DNA of 7,134 nucleotides, taken from contig CANOBT010000240.1 of assembly GCA_947564305.1 (NCBI GenBank), forward strand, positions 1-7,134. Direction: 5' to 3'. This DNA is from an uncultured Lachnospiraceae bacterium. Lineage in GTDB: Bacteria > Bacillota_A > Clostridia > Lachnospirales > Lachnospiraceae. Both the position numbers and the translations under genes were made by a program. How positions within the stretch are numbered: position 1 is the stretch's first letter; each line of letters opens with the position of its first letter. Below are positions 469 through 7,134 of the stretch, in pieces. The notes beneath the pieces were generated by a model. The model did not search any database. It was given only the letters and a program-made list of their open reading frames with translations, and was not told where the DNA came from.

Positions 469-855
469 TTATTCTGCATTTCTACACCCTTTTTCTATGC
501 CGTAACATGCTTCTGCAATTTTCTTGTACTGCGGGAGCCGATCCAGATACGGCTGAAATTTCCTTGCAATCTCTTCCGCTTCTAAGGAATCCACTGCTTT
601 GCTGCAATGGTCGTTTCCAAAATACTGCAGCACATCTGTCACAATCTCTGAAAAAAGTTCCTGGCATAAGGTTTCTCCATCATCAATAACAAGGGATTCA
701 CCCTCCAAATGGCGATGTTCTGTGCTGATTTTCAGCAGCACATACCCCACCTTATCCGACCATACCAAATCCAAGTACGGGCTGTTCTCCAGGTAATCTT
801 GAAATACTTCAATAATCTGTTCCAGTTCCAACTTCTGTTCCTCTGTATATAACAT
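469..855 (-). CDS. Small acidic protein of unknown function (128 residues)
   Basis: I chose the start at 855 (MLYTEEQKLELEQIIEVF) because it sits 7 nt after a perfect AGGAGG. An ATG at 912 in the same frame would add 19 residues but has no ribosome binding site. The product is 128 residues with no signal peptide or membrane segment, so it should be cytosolic. It is rich in Glu and Asp and has an amphipathic helix near residues 4-23, a short beta-like stretch around VGYVLLKIS, and a C-terminal helical part containing LDRLPQYKKIAEACYG. I do not recognise the family. It lies 108 nt downstream of the ABC ATPase gene, same strand, and could be co-transcribed with it. A short hairpin (873-890) precedes its ribosome binding site. 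It might be an accessory or immunity-type protein of the transporter cassette, but only position supports this. Confidence 0.75.
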   Translation of the reverse strand: MLYTEEQKLELEQIIEVFQDYLENSPYLDLVWSDKVGYVLLKISTEHRHLEGESLVIDDGETLCQELFSEIVTDVLQYFGNDHCSKAVDSLEAEEIARKFQPYLDRLPQYKKIAEACYGIEKGCRNAE

Positions 856-872
856 AGCTTTTCCTCCTGTCT

Positions 873-890
873 CTGGCTTTTTTATGCCAG
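873..890 (-). other. Small hairpin just upstream of the 128-residue protein gene
   Basis: On the minus strand CTGGC, an 8-nt A-rich loop and GCCAG form a 5-bp stem that ends a few bases before AGGAGG. It lacks a U-tract after the stem, so it is not a terminator. It could be a processing site or an effect on initiation, or simply chance. Confidence 0.25.
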
Positions 891-963
891 CATTACAAAA
901 AGATTCTATCATAATAGGAGAAACAGTGCCATAAAAAGCCGAATGGCCGCTGAATCCGTTTCC

Positions 964-1590
964 TTACCTGATAATCCTTCCACCATCTATCTCATAGGTA
1001 CGGTCACAGATACATTCAATATCCTTCTGATTATGAGACGCTAGTAAAATTGTCTTTCCTTTCTCTTTCTCTCTGTTCAGGACATTACGCATCTTTTCCG
1101 CCATCTGCCGATCCAACCCATTAAACGGCTCATCCAATACCAATATGTCTGGTTCTTCCATCAACGCCTGTGCCAGTCCCAAGCGCTGCCTCATGCCAAG
1201 AGAATACTTCTTTACTTTCTTATGGTCACCAATATCCAGTCCTGTCAGTTCCATATAAGCCGCCATCTCATCCCTGCCAATTTTTTTACGGATTCCTGCC
1301 AGAAGTTTCAGGTTCTCATAACCGCTCAAATACGGCATAAACCCTGGGGTTTCAATAATAAATCCTGTGTTTTTTGGAAATTCTGCATCCTTCCCAATCC
1401 TGTCACCCAAAACTTCAATTTCTCCGGTAAACATACTGTTAAATCCACAAATGCATTTCATCAGCATTGTCTTACCAGAACCATTTCCTCCCACCAGCCC
1501 CACAGCCTCGCCGCTTCTGGCTTCTATGGAAACATTTTTAAGAATCTGATGCTTATTTATTGTAAGTGATACATCTCTCACATAAATCAT
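964..1590 (-). CDS. ABC transporter ATP-binding protein, BcrA/GldA-like
   Basis: This is a 208-residue nucleotide-binding subunit that should power the two membrane proteins encoded just upstream. Visible motifs are Walker A GGNGSGKT (34-41), signature YSLGMRQ (129-135), Walker B ILVLDE (149-154), D-loop GLD (158-160) and the switch His in ASHN (H186). The Q-loop position carries Glu (E80 in GFIIETPG) instead of Gln. This is seen in the subfamily that includes bacitracin-resistance BcrA, GldA and lantibiotic-immunity ATPases, which supports that placement. The length is short: one compact domain with no C-terminal extension. Its ATG overlaps the stop of the upstream permease gene by ATGA (1587-1590), indicating coupled translation. 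An AGGAGG lies about 12 nt upstream inside the permease gene. The substrate is unknown. In this subfamily typical roles are self-immunity or antimicrobial-peptide resistance. Confidence 0.93.
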   Translation of the reverse strand: MIYVRDVSLTINKHQILKNVSIEARSGEAVGLVGGNGSGKTMLMKCICGFNSMFTGEIEVLGDRIGKDAEFPKNTGFIIETPGFMPYLSGYENLKLLAGIRKKIGRDEMAAYMELTGLDIGDHKKVKKYSLGMRQRLGLAQALMEEPDILVLDEPFNGLDRQMAEKMRNVLNREKEKGKTILLASHNQKDIECICDRTYEIDGGRIIR

Positions 1591-2462
1591 GGCAGTACAT
1601 CCCCTCCTATCATATCAAGGCTTACCTTCCGCGCCTTCCTATACATAAGCGCCATAAGCAGCAGCACAGCCAGCACAAACAACGCCAGCGACCACCATGG
1701 CGCAAACATATACTCCCTAAAATATTTCCGGTAATGGCACGCCAGCATGGAATGGCTCACTGGAAAAAGCCACATGCCCCGGCTCCGTATCAAAATCAGC
1801 CCGCATCCCACCGTAATATGCAGTACCTGCAGTAAGAACAGCAAAAGCCGCTTTTGATATAAACAGCCCGCTAAAAATATGAAACCGCACCACAGCAAAA
1901 ATAACGATATCAAACCATACGACAGTAAAAATGCTTTCATGGGGGACATTTGGAAATACAGATTCGGAGGAATAATCTCCGCCATCTTAAACCCTCCCAC
2001 TACACCATAAAGCCCGTCATAATCTGTCACTGCCAGGCTCCAGCCATTGGCAAGGAAAGCATCTGCGGCCACCTGTGCCACAGATGCCGCAATGATAATA
2101 AAATTATAGGTAACAACTGCCATAAACTGAAACAGCATCTCTCCCAGTATCCAGTTCCTTCTCCCCATGCGCGCTATGTAAAAAAGCATGTTGCCATCCA
2201 TCGTAGGAAACGAAGACATAAAAACCATATATACCAAAGCCATAAGAAGAAGCCCCAGCCATGAATTCGCTGTTGCAATGCATGGCTCTAACAGATTCAC
2301 CGGGCTGTCCATCTTTTCTGCCGCTTTAAGCATTGGCATAATCACAACATCACGCAGAGGTAGGATTACCACTGCTAAAAGCAGAATTTTCGGATTCACC
2401 AGCCAGCGAATATATTCACTTCCCGCTGTCAGGGCAATATTTTTTATCTGAATATTTTTCAT
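1587..2462 (-). CDS. ABC-2-type transporter membrane protein (291 residues)
   Basis: A polytopic membrane protein with about six predicted helices, near residues 25-43, 67-85, 107-131, 175-200, 205-225 and 255-274. This is the usual count for an ABC-2-type permease. A short basic stretch, ARMGRRN (97-103), between the second and third helices could be the cytoplasmic coupling element that meets the ATPase. The C-terminal tail after the last helix is basic (YRKARK), which fits a cytoplasmic end. The stop overlaps the ATPase start (ATGA) and its own start overlaps the preceding membrane-protein gene by four bases (2459-2462), so the three are one coupled set. I see no similarity to a specific named permease. 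The family call rests on topology, length and the adjacent ATPase. Confidence 0.85.
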   Translation of the reverse strand: MKNIQIKNIALTAGSEYIRWLVNPKILLLAVVILPLRDVVIMPMLKAAEKMDSPVNLLEPCIATANSWLGLLLMALVYMVFMSSFPTMDGNMLFYIARMGRRNWILGEMLFQFMAVVTYNFIIIAASVAQVAADAFLANGWSLAVTDYDGLYGVVGGFKMAEIIPPNLYFQMSPMKAFLLSYGLISLFLLWCGFIFLAGCLYQKRLLLFLLQVLHITVGCGLILIRSRGMWLFPVSHSMLACHYRKYFREYMFAPWWSLALFVLAVLLLMALMYRKARKVSLDMIGGDVLP

Positions 2463-3157
2463 ATCCGCTCACTCCTGAATTTCCACATTACGCCATACAA
2501 AACCGCCAAAATCCCTGTCAAAAACAGCGGAAAGGCAAAATTCTCTCTCATGGCTGTTTCCCTCAATAAATATGCGGCAATAAACAATATACTCAAATCA
2601 ACATACAGATTCTGGTACAGATAGACCATAAAGGAAGCAAACGCAGACATAGCCATCCCATACGCTGCCAGATACAGAATTTTAGCCAGCATACAAATTA
2701 CAAATTGTGCCGTGTTCATTTCCACGCCTGCATCACCTCCTGCAGGATTCACCGGAAAGATCATGCAGACTGCCGCCGCATACACGGCAAGACCTACTGC
2801 CACTGCCGCTCCGCCGCTTACAGCAGAATATAAAAAACCTGAATACACATATCTGTACTTTCCTTTGCGCATTTGCACACCCATATAAAACCTACTTTTA
2901 AGCTCTTCATAAATATAGGATGCAGAAGGAATAGCCGCAACCACTGGCAAAAGTGTATACATCCAGCTTGTCCTGCCAGCCAGAAACACATCGCGTGCAG
3001 CAAATCCCCGCAGCGCCTCCCTTGGAAGCCTTAGGATTCCCGTAATTACTGAAACGCTCCCATCCCCATCTTTATGATACAGCGGTCCCAGAAGGAATAA
3101 AACAAAAATTGCCACAATCCCCAGAATATAATAAGGCATCTTTTTCTTAACCTTCAT
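2459..3157 (-). CDS. Second ABC-type membrane protein (232 residues)
   Basis: A membrane protein with about six hydrophobic segments, near residues 9-26, 65-82, 111-135, 150-180, 185-199 and 208-226. An external-looking loop rich in Asp, Gly and Ser follows the first helix. A basic cytoplasmic loop around ELKSRFYMGVQMRKGKYRY (85-103) resembles the coupling region of ABC-2 permeases, where the ABC ATPase would dock. The next gene encodes another six-helix protein and then an ATPase, so this is probably one half of a heterodimeric permease. The gene begins one base after the TGA of the lipoprotein gene and ends inside the next start codon. A GGAG lies about 9 nt before the ATG. No family name can be given from sequence alone. 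Confidence 0.82.
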   Translation of the reverse strand: MKVKKKMPYYILGIVAIFVLFLLGPLYHKDGDGSVSVITGILRLPREALRGFAARDVFLAGRTSWMYTLLPVVAAIPSASYIYEELKSRFYMGVQMRKGKYRYVYSGFLYSAVSGGAAVAVGLAVYAAAVCMIFPVNPAGGDAGVEMNTAQFVICMLAKILYLAAYGMAMSAFASFMVYLYQNLYVDLSILFIAAYLLRETAMRENFAFPLFLTGILAVLYGVMWKFRSERI

Positions 3158-3158
3158 A

Positions 3159-4325
3159 TCAGCCGCTCCGTCCTATATCAGAATCCGTCACTAGTTCCCC
3201 GGTAACCATATCTACAAGAAAAAAATTCTTACAAGTTCCAAATTTTAGTATCCCCATGCCTGGATCTTCCCCTGGTGCCTGCACCAAAAATGCATAAACA
3301 GGTCTAGCATTAATCCTGGCTCCCGGCATGTTATAGTCCTCTTCTACATATAGTGCATATAATGGGCAGACTTCTGTAATTTTAAAAGTTCCAAACCCAG
3401 ACAACGTTTCATTGACAATCCTCACGGCACTTTCAAAATCAACCACTTTCTCAACTTTTTCCGTTGAGTCTATGACAAAACCTTCATTTCTCGAAAAAAA
3501 GGAGGGAATATTTGCGGCATCATATTCCAGCTGGACTACAAGGTTTGTCGTCACGCATTTCGTACTCAAATCCCAATTTTCTTCCATCTGAGGCATCGTA
3601 TGATCATCCAGACGGATTCCTTTATACTCGTACTCTGCACACATGGAAACTTTCCTTGCGTCTGTATCGTCCATTTTCCTGACAAACGCATCTGAAACTT
3701 TATACCGGATGCCCTTTATCGGAAAATTTTCTTGCATCCACTCTTCTGTGCTTTTGCATAAATCATCAAGATTTACTTCTTTATCCTTCAAAAGCACATT
3801 TACATTCGATATATCTTCTTTATCTATTTGGTACTTATGCTCTATTTTATTAGGAAAATAGGTATAAGACAAATCTGCCATACGAACCATGCCGCCATTC
3901 TCTAATATTGATATATATTTCTGTTCCTCTTCATTTTCATATTCAATGATACCGCCTCCAAAACCCGTTTCATCTGATTTTTTCTCACTTTTAATTTCAT
4001 TCAGATTACCTTCAAATAATTCCATATATTTTTTGACATTTCCTTCATTCAGGAAATCCTTTTCAAGTGACAGATGCAGAATCTCCACGCCCTCTATCTC
4101 TGAGAAATCTATATATTCGGGAAAACTTAAATTGCTCCCGTTGATTTCCGGCAGTTTCTCCTGCTTCATTTCGTCCACAGAACAATAAGTGATTTCCGAG
4201 GATTCCAACTGAGGATTGTCCCCATACTCCTTCATATTCTCTTTTACTTCCTGGGGTGCCTCCTGGCAGGCACAGAAAAAGACCGCGACGCACAATACCG
4301 CAAGAAATATTTCCACCCTTTTCAT
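3159..4325 (-). CDS. Lipoprotein associated with the ABC transporter (388 residues)
   Basis: The N-terminus has a Lys-Arg pair and a hydrophobic core followed by FFCAC, which reads as a lipobox of slightly unusual form (Phe-Cys-Ala then Cys20). The mature protein should be lipid-anchored outside the membrane. Residues 21-60 look like a flexible acidic linker. The rest is mixed alpha/beta and acidic. The C-terminal part (about 294-378) has a helix (DFESAVRIVNETLSG), strands, then PVYAFLV and FFLVDMVTGELV, a layout reminiscent of PepSY or YycH/YycI-type extracytoplasmic domains. I offer that as a resemblance only. The start is well supported by GAGGTGAT before the ATG. It lies directly upstream of the membrane proteins (1-nt gap) and downstream of the secreted protein gene, so it may bind that protein, act as an immunity lipoprotein, or work as a transporter accessory factor. 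Confidence 0.85.
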   Translation of the reverse strand: MKRVEIFLAVLCVAVFFCACQEAPQEVKENMKEYGDNPQLESSEITYCSVDEMKQEKLPEINGSNLSFPEYIDFSEIEGVEILHLSLEKDFLNEGNVKKYMELFEGNLNEIKSEKKSDETGFGGGIIEYENEEEQKYISILENGGMVRMADLSYTYFPNKIEHKYQIDKEDISNVNVLLKDKEVNLDDLCKSTEEWMQENFPIKGIRYKVSDAFVRKMDDTDARKVSMCAEYEYKGIRLDDHTMPQMEENWDLSTKCVTTNLVVQLEYDAANIPSFFSRNEGFVIDSTEKVEKVVDFESAVRIVNETLSGFGTFKITEVCPLYALYVEEDYNMPGARINARPVYAFLVQAPGEDPGMGILKFGTCKNFFLVDMVTGELVTDSDIGRSG

Positions 4326-4352
4326 AACATCACCTCGATACTATGTAATAAC

Positions 4353-4387
4353 TGCAAGGGGTTCTATCATAATCCGAACCCCTTGCA
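4353..4387 (-). terminator. 12-bp intercistronic hairpin, probable partial terminator or attenuator
   Basis: The arms TGCAAGGGGTTC and GAACCCCTTGCA pair perfectly over 12 bp around an 11-nt loop, in the 71-nt gap between the secreted-protein stop and the lipoprotein start. On the minus strand the stem is followed by GTTATTAC, which is only moderately U-rich. It should therefore be a leaky terminator or a 3'-end stabiliser that lets the first gene be expressed above the rest. Confidence 0.65.
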
Positions 4388-4396
4388 AAATAAATA

Positions 4397-4801
4397 TTAA
4401 TGTTTTATACTACCGCTTGCTCTGCCCGGATTGCTTGGATAATTTACAAACTTCACGGTATATGTATAAGTGAGCCCTCGAGATACACGTATTGAATGAT
4501 TGGTAACTCTGGAACTGAATACTCTGCCGCTTCCGCTGATGGCATTAGGAACGTTAATTCTGACTGAAGCACCATTCGCTATACTGCTAACATTAAAATA
4601 TGATGTCGTTCCATATGCAATCATTGCTCTGCTCCATGAAGTTAAATTTTCAGCAGGCGGTCCGCTGGGATTATAATATAAAGACCATGATGTTGTCTCC
4701 TGCGCTGCAAACGCTGTAATGCCAAATAGCTGCAAACTAACAGCGCACGCCGCTATCAGACATGTCACTTTCTTTAATGATTTCAATTTGCATTTGTTCA
4801 T
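4397..4801 (-). CDS. Sec-secreted, cationic, beta-rich small protein (134-residue precursor)
   Basis: The precursor begins MNKCKLKSLKKVTCLIAAC, a classical signal peptide with a basic n-region and a hydrophobic core (about 12-28). It ends at AFA, so cleavage after residue 32 leaves about 102 residues. The mature part has no cysteine. It holds seven Arg and two Lys against only two Glu and no Asp, so it is strongly basic. It is rich in Ser, Thr, Tyr and Asn with alternating hydrophobic residues (ASVRINVPNAI, TYTYTVKFVNYPS), which suggests a small beta-sandwich. It ends SIKH. The start follows GGGGAGG by 8 nt, a strong site. I do not recognise the family. Small Sec-secreted proteins next to a lipoprotein and ABC genes are reminiscent of Sec-dependent bacteriocin-like loci, but no lactococcin-972 motif is visible. 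It may be an antimicrobial, a signal, or a wall-associated protein. Confidence 0.85.
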   Translation of the reverse strand: MNKCKLKSLKKVTCLIAACAVSLQLFGITAFAAQETTSWSLYYNPSGPPAENLTSWSRAMIAYGTTSYFNVSSIANGASVRINVPNAISGSGRVFSSRVTNHSIRVSRGLTYTYTVKFVNYPSNPGRASGSIKH

Positions 4802-5052: not shown

Positions 5053-5097
5053 AGTTTATTATAAAAGTAATAATTTGTCAATTATCTTATTTTTTTT
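5053..5097 (-). promoter_or_regulatory. Promoter with TTGACA -35 and A-tract UP element
   Basis: On the minus strand a run of eight A (5090-5097) precedes a perfect TTGACA (5076-5081), followed after 17 nt by TAAACT (5053-5058, four of six matches to TATAAT). The A-tract just upstream of -35 looks like an UP element. A nearer TATAAT at 5058-5063 leaves only a 12-nt spacer and is unlikely to pair with this -35. This is the likeliest promoter of the secreted-protein and transporter operon. Confidence 0.55.
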
Positions 5098-5356: not shown

Positions 5357-5796
5357 TTATACAAAAGCATCCATTTTATCAAAGCTAAGCTCAATTCGTC
5401 TGCCGTCACCGTATTTGATTGCATTTTCAATCAGATTTTGCAGGCACTCTGCAAGACGGTCGGGGTCGCAGGAAAGAATGCAGTCATCATATTTCTGAAT
5501 GGCAAGCTCCGTTCCCGCCATGGCAAGCTGGGGCGCATATCTCGCATCTGGCCTCTTGATGATAACGCTTAAGAAAGCCTCCCCCTGCTTCTATAATCAG
5601 ATAATGCTCATCGGAGTTGTACAGTTCGCCATCATCAGCCTTGAACACCCCCGTAATGTGGGGATATTTTTCAAGGTCATAATTGCCTGTTTCCGCTATC
5701 TCATCTGCAAGCCGCTTGGCTTCAACACGGTAAATGCCTTCGTTTCGGTTTTTTGCTCCCACAAGAAATACCTTATCAGCTAAGATTCTGCAAGCA
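5357..5796 (-). pseudogene. Sensor histidine kinase remnant with internal deletion and lost ends
   Basis: Two pieces of a two-component sensor kinase lie in different frames. The upstream piece (5796 to about 5586) has FLVGAKNRNEGIYRVEAKR and YNSDEHYLIIEAGG, typical of the extracytoplasmic start of kinases that accompany antimicrobial-peptide ABC transporters. The second piece (about 5580-5357) reads AFLSVIIKR, then DRLAECLQNLIENAIKYGDG, the N-box of the HATPase domain, then stops at TAA 5357-5359. Missing are the start codon and first membrane segment, the second membrane segment, HAMP and His-phosphoacceptor regions, and the G-boxes after the N-box. The junction is near 5577-5586 in a G-rich stretch. 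The frame begins directly after the ATPase stop without a start codon. It cannot make a working kinase. Confidence 0.8.
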
Positions 5797-6414
5797 TTAC
5801 CAGCCCTGTTCCATAAGCCAGTTATTCAGTTCTCTTTCACGGTCACGAAACTCCTTGTCACCGCCGCCAAAATGTCCCATTTCTTTTTCACCGACAATAC
5901 CGCCGTCCACAATGTAAAGTACCCTGCTGCACTTGGCGGCAACCTTTGAATCGTGGATCACGCACATAATCGTCGTACCGGCACGGTTGAGGGAGAGCAG
6001 CTCGTTCATGACCTCTTCAGAGCTTGCACGGTTTAATGCGCCTGTCGGCTCGTCGGCAAAAATCATCTTGGGATTGTTTATCATACTGCGGCAGATGCAA
6101 GCCCTCTGAAGCTGTCCGCCCGACACCTCGTTAATATCATTGCCGCGTACATTGTCAATGCCGAGCTTTTGCATGAGCGCTCTGCCGCGCTCCTCGGTCT
6201 GCCTGCGGCTCACCATATTCTTTTTGGACTTTACCGCAGGAAAAATGATATTATCAAGTACCGAGAGATTTTTCATCATGTACAGATGCTGAAAAATAAA
6301 ACCCATTTCGCCCTCGCCGATTGTCAAATCGACGTTTTTCAACACATTGTTCTGATGTTTGTTCACAATATATGTCTTGCAAAGTCCCTTTGTCTGTAAA
6401 ACCGGATGATTCAT
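5797..6414 (-). pseudogene. MacB/LolD-type ABC ATPase lacking its Walker A region
   Basis: From ATG 6414 (MNHPVLQTKGLCKTYIVNKH) the product is 205 residues and has the Q-loop MGFIFQH (Q42), signature VSGGQLQR (97-104), Walker B MIFADEPTGALN (117-128), switch His in VIHD (H154) and the familiar end NNWLMEQGW. After VDLTIGEGE (28-36) the sequence jumps straight to MGFIFQ. The expected 40-50 residues that carry GPSGSGKST are absent, and the reading frame is kept. Without a P-loop it should not bind or hydrolyse ATP normally. In-frame codons extend upstream to 6579, but they are antisense to a recombinase tail and are not native. No good ribosome binding site precedes 6414. Family members pair with an FtsX-like permease and a two-component system. 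The permease is gone and only a kinase scrap follows. Confidence 0.85.
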
Positions 6415-6561
6415 TCTGAAAAATCCAGCTGTCACAGCCATGTCAAAGTGGACATCTACTTTACGGCGGTAGGGATGACAGACATTCCTACCGAAGAAGA
6501 AATCCTTGCTACGATGGAAGAAATACGGAATAACCCGCAGGACTTCAAATTTGCAGCATAA
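6415..6561 (+). pseudogene. C-terminal tail of a probable large serine recombinase (TnpX/DUF4368-like)
   Basis: The plus strand encodes 48 residues ending at TAA 6559-6561. They include SHVKVDIYFTAVGMTDIPT and EEILATMEEIRNNPQDF. The pattern VKVDIYFTAVGM followed by an acidic helix resembles the extreme C-terminus of DUF4368-bearing large serine recombinases of clostridial mobilisable and conjugative elements. That assignment is from memory of the family. No catalytic domain is present: the frame loses sense at about 6414, exactly where the ATPase start begins on the other strand. It is therefore a truncated 3' end left by deletion or insertion. It is the only strong plus-strand coding signal in the window. 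Confidence 0.6.
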
Positions 6562-6568
6562 CAAAATG

Positions 6569-6604
6569 ATACGGCGCAATCCTTTTTACGGATTTGCACC
6601 GTAC
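6569..6604 (+). terminator. Hairpin just after the recombinase stop
   Basis: The plus strand can fold TACGG-c-GCAATCC against GGATTTGC-a-CCGTA with one mismatch and one bulge, 8 nt after the recombinase TAA. A run of five T lies in the loop, but no T-tract follows the stem. It is a probable 3'-end structure of the recombinase transcript or part of the element end. Confidence 0.4.
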
Positions 6605-6954: not shown

Positions 6955-7030
6955 GAAATAAAATAGAGCCAACGAACTGTGATGATTGCTCACTTGTCCA
7001 TCGGCTCCGCATCTATGTGTCTGGCTCTAT
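6955..7030 (-). terminator. Probable terminator of the KTR gene
   Basis: On the minus strand ATAGAGCCA (7030-7022) pairs with TGGCTCTAT (6971-6963), a perfect 9-bp stem around a 50-nt loop that may fold further. TTTTATTTC follows directly. The upstream arm lies inside the last codons of the KTR frame. Confidence 0.45.
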
Positions 7031-7134
7031 GATGACTGCTGTATGTAGATTTTTCACTTCAATCAGCGTTTTCTTCTTGCACTTTGGACAGTAGAGAGGA
7101 TAGTTCTTCAAAACTGTATCTTTTCTTATTCTGT
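7013..7134 (-). pseudogene. Cysteine-rich KTR-type protein, C-terminal part, ends early
   Basis: The frame enters from the right edge and encodes 39 residues, including YPLYCPKCKKETLIEVKN and TAVIIEPDT, then TAG at 7013-7015. The CPKC knuckle followed by ETLIEVKN and EPD matches what I remember of the small cysteine-rich KTR proteins carried on Tn916-like and other Firmicute conjugative elements, whose usual end is EPD-AKTQSR. After the TAG the same frame continues M-R-S-R-W, which aligns with TQSR plus stop. So the TAG probably replaces the Lys codon, shaving about five residues. The zinc-knuckle part in view is intact, so the protein could still function. The missing N-terminal half should carry a second Cys pair. 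Confidence 0.6.

Follow-up and report, generated by a model that had tools for sequence, protein, structure and literature searches.

Nisin is countered by the lipoprotein NisI together with the ATP-binding cassette (ABC) transporter NisFEG, as outlined in PMC10257480. In the lactococcin 972 system, according to the portion of the report drawn on here (PMC4786598), a Sec-secreted structural gene is followed by putative ABC immunity genes, and a second transcript carries the structural gene alone. YycH and YycI are described as modulators of the kinase WalK in the section of a review used here (PMC8774646). Here we compare with these systems a locus in a 7,134-nucleotide stretch of DNA from an uncultured Lachnospiraceae bacterium (assembly GCA_947564305.1, contig CANOBT010000240.1, forward strand), the whole of which is called the window. 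Its five genes, A to E, form a real conserved operon of gut bacteria, whose gene order recurs in distant relatives beyond chance. To judge from the comparisons below, the operon is most likely functionally like LanI-LanFEG or lactococcin 972 and a sequence member of neither. Its features are:

4397..4801, minus strand: gene A, 134 residues, Sec-secreted, with a signal peptide at about residues 1-32 and a mature part predicted as a seven-strand beta-sandwich
4353..4387, minus strand: stem-loop between A and B, with 12-bp arms at 4353-4364 and 4376-4387
3159..4325, minus strand: gene B, a 388-residue lipoprotein with an invariant Cys20 and a predicted YycH/YycI-like ectodomain
2459..3157, minus strand: gene C, 232 residues, ABC-2-type permease subunit 1, with a weak ABC2_membrane_2 match
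1587..2462, minus strand: gene D, 291 residues, ABC-2-type permease subunit 2 (profile A3), with six hydrophobic peaks
964..1590, minus strand: gene E, 208 residues, a BcrA/MutF-type ABC ATPase (PF00005)

Genes A to E are intact, and six minus-strand open reading frames (ORFs), the sixth being gene F, occupy 4801-469. All six had been named by a sequence-only reading of this DNA, as had the 4-base ATGA overlaps, which are present at both C/D and D/E.

The gene order resembles that of LanI-LanFEG in that a lipoprotein, two permease subunits and a BcrA/MutF-type ATPase lie near an exported product, presumably in a single operon. E, the ATPase described as BcrA/GldA-like in the sequence-only reading, matches ABC_tran with an E-value of 8e-28, its Walker and signature motifs are intact by eye, and its best NCBIfam model is that of the lantibiotic protection ATPase (TIGR03740), with GldA second. 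Unlike a LanF protein, however, E lies far under the TIGR03740 cutoff (144.1 versus 309.75 bits). Neither permease scores above any NCBIfam cutoff, so C and D do not match LanE/LanG (MutE/MutG), models of which NCBIfam presumably includes. In further contrast to LanI-LanFEG, A is Sec-secreted with about 100 mature residues, no lantibiotic modification gene was seen in the window, and the predicted fold of B is of the YycH/YycI type. The NisI/SpaI fold was not among the B fold matches listed, which is no proof of absence.

The likeness to lactococcin 972, as far as the cited portion of that report goes, lies in a Sec-secreted structural protein that comes first and putative ABC immunity genes downstream. 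Mature lactococcin 972 is an all-beta protein, and A likewise combines a Sec signal-like N-terminus with a mature part predicted to consist of strands. However, A matches no Pfam or NCBIfam model, among which we assume a lactococcin 972 family model to be included, the operon holds an extra lipoprotein, and E is nearer to the MutF type than to the Lcn972 ABC model (144 versus 91.5 bits). The lactococcin 972 fold did not appear among the A fold matches listed. None of the families searched (Pfam, NCBIfam) names A or B, and no description of the A-B-C-D-E system was found in the literature, judged by titles and the openings of abstracts.

We next consider how widely the operon is conserved. A contig scan with the B alignment yielded 12 loci (numbered with L), of which eight are titled Lachnospiraceae, two Ruminococcus, and one each Eubacterium and Ruminiclostridium. 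The order A-B-C-D-E was present in L001, L004 (with B in two copies), L007 and L011. L003 has A-B-C-D with E displaced upstream, and L006 has A-B-B-D-E with no C recognised. L002, L005, L010 and L012 carry B-C-D-E, the last two with little or no sequence upstream, and in L008 and L009 B occurs without adjoining C-D-E. When permease D was used as bait, a match at an E-value ≤ 1e-20 was found in 29 of 397 genomes of the family to which L001's genome belongs, and at 1e-30 in 3 of 341 genomes of the class, one of which was L001's own.

Altogether 52 D loci were compared: 30 of the 31 D places of the family scan at an E-value ≤ 1e-30 (the 31st being L001), nine further D places, two from the class scan, ten from the B scan, and the window. 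E, C and B each adjoin D in 49 of the loci (the count for B takes in four fused forms, on which see below); A was recognised by profile in 22. Ten of these loci had been found via B, which is there by construction; among the 41 found via D alone, B adjoins D in 38. The A and B counts are partly by construction because the A6 and divergent-B profiles contain many proteins from the 52 loci. E was not beside D in L003, in L088 (a short piece only) or in L118 (contig end), and that of L106 is a partial match; C was not found beside D in L006, L103 and L159, nor B in L102, L123 and L159. In L102, B is located beyond E and an A-like ORF is present; L092 and L124 hold positional A-like secreted ORFs that the profile missed. 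Fewer than 500 bases lie upstream of B in at least five (L010, L012, L105, L120, L121) of the loci where the profile found no A. A conserved cassette in the order proposed by the sequence-only reading, with an exported product, a hairpin, and then a lipoprotein and a split ABC transporter, is supported. Of 10 weaker D relatives (E-values 1e-20 to 1e-30), three were looked at (L164-L166). In these, C, D and E, partly reordered, are accompanied by a large lipoprotein-like gene, with two-component genes nearby that were confirmed by Pfam in L164 and L166; these D/E-type loci suggest a still wider superfamily.

The association of A with B was also followed from the side of A. The A2 profile gave seven matches under 1e-10 in 6 of the 397 genomes, and B lies directly downstream in all seven (L001, L095, L097, L100, L101, L111, L112), the A of L001 being nearly a member of the profile (near-source of one). 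The A6 profile gave 75 rows, of which 11 were profile members or nearly so, eight others were looked at, and the remaining 56 were all weak. B adjoins six of the eight (G281:C22, G287:C25, G289:C27, G157:C14, G289:C38, G371:C72); three of these six loci are truncated by contig ends, and at G157 and G371 the contig ends leave only short, weakly scoring B pieces (16 and 29 bits). The other two, G319:C24 and G380:C45, whose frames are 343 and 166 residues long, are weaker matches with no B adjoining and look like signal-peptide matches. The A-B pair of G289:C38 is not followed by C-D-E, and a complete operon lies elsewhere in the same genome. Secreted homologues consistently standing apart from the lipoprotein and ABC genes, which the sequence-only reading had named as evidence against the grouping, were not encountered: the strong A matches examined adjoin B. 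One A-B pair, that of L158 (5537-7780, minus strand), has no transporter genes beside it and adjoins pieces of a second, decayed B, the full operon being elsewhere in that genome (L098).

To judge from its signal-peptide-like N-terminus, A is exported by Sec. The model of A has a predicted local distance difference test score (pLDDT) of 83 overall and of 81-96 per 10-residue block from residue 31 onward, and its mature part shows seven predicted strands and only one short helix-like turn. A sequence search of 5.8 billion proteins found 2 close homologues, and a seven-sequence profile found 9, those 2 included; near and distant members were joined by profile-profile comparison with an E-value of 2.3e-18. 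These members have in common an N-terminal W-x-L motif, a following stretch of P-rich or G-A-P-S-S type, and a C-terminal G. The term cationic, applied to A in the sequence-only reading, suits the window protein, with an isoelectric point (pI) of 10.3, and not the family, in which the pI varies from 4.4 to 10.3 (19 members). Identity between the window and L003 is lowest for A (30%, compared with 43% for B, 63% for D and 78% for E), making the exported protein the most variable.

B had 54 homologues in the same 5.8 billion proteins, and its Cys20 is invariant across 48 aligned sequences. Its model (pLDDT 86.5) is predicted to share the fold of the WalK regulators YycH and YycI, and also that of EUBREC_2869, an uncharacterised protein of Eubacterium rectale (PDB 5coz) which is absent from the sequence matches of profiles A1 and A5. 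Sequence matches to these families are sparse: window B has no credible Pfam match and none to YycI at an E-value ≤ 1, and among 21 divergent B proteins three show a weak PepSY match and one a weak YycI match (E-value 0.0024). B also differs from YycH and YycI in being a lipoprotein tied to an ABC operon, with no walRK genes seen adjoining. Fusions of a B-like domain occur in four relatives, with BlaR1 or, in two proteins, with the product encoded after an extracytoplasmic function (ECF) sigma factor. Given this predicted fold, and given that such a domain also forms the outer part in BlaR1 and in the two ECF-sigma-linked proteins, B is probably a sensing or binding domain and more than an immunity lipoprotein. 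Neither the predicted fold nor these occurrences had been anticipated from the window sequence. In one genome (L087 and L009), secreted-looking proteins of about 300-470 residues cluster round B-type lipoprotein genes, and no A gene was found there.

E and its adjoining multi-pass permeases have the composition of an ABC-2 exporter, with a sub-threshold model match for permease C and none for D. C has a sub-threshold Pfam match to ABC2_membrane_2 and no NCBIfam match at an E-value ≤ 1; D reaches no Pfam cutoff and has only a weak NCBIfam match to AmaP (16.1 bits). Pfam likewise gave nothing above cutoff for A, B or F. The statement that the non-ATPase genes belong to no named family was upheld for A, B, C and D, which lie outside the families searched. 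Of the two six-helix membrane proteins that had been proposed, D shows six peaks in a crude hydrophobicity scan and C five distinct ones, since two of its six overlap. In L007 (11156-12847), a single uninterrupted open frame of about 560 residues contains both C and D, possibly as a fused permease.

The A/B junction of the window folds with a minimum free energy of -30.2, versus -21.7 ± 3.1 for 60 simple shuffles. Among 21 A-B junctions, a gap of at least 25 bases makes 14 testable, and 10 of the 14 lie at least 2 standard deviations below simple (not dinucleotide) shuffles. Those of L006, L109, L113 and L126 do not. The gap of L089 is uncertain, since its B may begin earlier than called.

Some relatives carry regulatory genes beside the operon. 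A LytTR response regulator and a GHKL kinase lie upstream in L101, L109, L112, L116, L117 and L126, and four of them (L101, L109, L112, L126) also have A. AgrB was found in L101, L109, L117 and L126. AgrD passes its cutoff in L117 and L126; a candidate in L109 failed. BlaI/BlaR1 occurs in L090 and L099, and an ECF sigma factor in L003, L004, L010, L011, L091, L114 and L125, of which L003, L004, L011 and L114 have A. An SH3_3-domain protein of about 135 residues is encoded near the cassette at L003 8672-9079 and L004 1627-2031, adjoining the ECF sigma gene and the gene that follows it.

We tentatively favour a self-protected exported-effector operon, in which A is an exported effector and B with C-D-E provides its own protection. 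A would leave the cell via Sec as a folded beta-sandwich and act outside, most likely as a narrow-spectrum bacteriocin-like factor. Membrane-anchored B would bind or sense A, or the damage done by A, through its YycH/YycI-type ectodomain, and C-D-E, in the manner of LanFEG, would spend ATP to clear bound material from the membrane. The A/B hairpin would permit more A than machinery, and agr quorum sensing, BlaI/BlaR1 or an ECF sigma factor would probably turn the operon on in some relatives. We infer the toxicity of A, its binding by B, the clearing by C-D-E, and the roles of the hairpin and neighbour genes; A may be a toxin, substrate or ligand of the machinery. An exported protein, a hairpin, a lipoprotein and a split MutF-like transporter, with quorum genes by some relatives, fit production plus immunity as in nisin and lactococcin 972, and the working principle of A-B-C-D-E resembles that of known immunity operons.

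Several observations weigh against this reading. A has no recognisable toxin feature, no Pfam or NCBIfam family at an E-value ≤ 1, and no member similar in sequence to a known bacteriocin; its fold matches are generic beta-sandwiches, with a best Foldseek E-value of 9e-3. The ratio of nonsynonymous to synonymous substitution rates between the A genes of the window and L001 is 0.13, which indicates purifying selection and, over this distance, gives no hint of an arms race, and it is 0.06-0.22 over all six genes, A included. B has the predicted fold of kinase regulators. In 30 of the 52 loci the profile did not find A (two of them with a positional A-like ORF), so the transporter needs no adjoining A, and B occurs without adjoining C-D-E in L008, L009 and L158. 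A was not found in the agr-bearing L116 and L117, neither BlaI/BlaR1 locus has it, and the counts of agr, BlaI/BlaR1 and ECF neighbours stand without a background rate. In the window, no intact regulator adjoins the operon, with only kinase and ABC ATPase remnants upstream of A.

A doubtful alternative, the strongest of those considered, is a sensing module without a toxin, in which B would primarily be a sensor, A its secreted ligand or cofactor, and C-D-E would transmit or reset the signal, as Bce-type transporters do. The lack of an intact sensor or regulator beside the window operon counts against this as well, and a dedicated ABC-2 transporter whose ATPase is closest to those of bacteriocin immunity would hardly be needed for a ligand. 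General resistance to antimicrobial peptides, with B and C-D-E guarding against foreign peptides and A as a secreted decoy or shield, appears unlikely: the BcrA/MutF type of E, the many B-C-D-E loci without a found A, and the BlaR1-type and ECF neighbours, which fit a response to external attack, are in its favour, but the charge of A is not uniform across the family and agr neighbours suit production better than defence. Very improbable is a role for A as a surface, appendage or carbohydrate-binding protein placed or energised by the lipoprotein and transporter as in GldA-type systems, for although GldA is the second-best model of E and CBM36 and the Ena2A fibre are among the weak fold neighbours of A, those scores are no better than common arrangements give, inspection of A by eye shows neither an anchor nor a sorting signal, and A has a Sec signal of its own.

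If the exported-effector reading is true, Lachnospiraceae and their relatives hold an unannotated family of exported proteins, possibly antibacterial in action, together with the protection that matches them; gene order revealed this family, which the Pfam and NCBIfam models applied here miss. A broader proposal, possible though rather doubtful, is that B-type YycH/YycI-like domains are interchangeable extracellular receptors for A-type beta-sandwich proteins, serving either as a lipoprotein that feeds an ABC-2 transporter or as an ectodomain, in BlaR1 or in an ECF anti-sigma factor. Gut Clostridia would then make, sense and disarm a family of diverging exported proteins, with quorum control in some strains. 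What the YycH/YycI fold senses is left open in the section of the WalK review used here (PMC8774646), and the fusions of a B-like domain with BlaR1 and with likely anti-sigma factors would give a direct handle on it.

Two further features flank the operon:

469..912, minus strand: gene F, 147 residues, a small acidic protein and a neighbour outside the conserved operon
5053..5081, minus strand: best match to a sigma-70-like promoter 5' of A, at 10 of 12 positions

F had been counted as a member of the cassette, a view its distribution does not support: a homologue was found in only one of 54 related loci, L001. The promoter call is weak, since 20 such sites were found in the window versus 17.4 expected. 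Upstream of A, window positions 5357-6579 hold what is, by its sequence, a decayed transporter-plus-kinase cluster. On the minus strand, 5797-6579 is the remnant of a LolD/MacB-type ABC ATPase that matches ABC_tran profile positions 52-136 only, and 5357-5521 and 5487-5762 are the remnant of a sensor histidine kinase split across two frames, with Pfam HATPase_c on the first piece only and below cutoff. At 7016-7132, minus strand, the window edge cuts through a gene for a cysteine-rich KTR protein (PF14205, E-value 4.7e-18), of which the C-terminal part is present; genes of this type are frequent on integrative elements.

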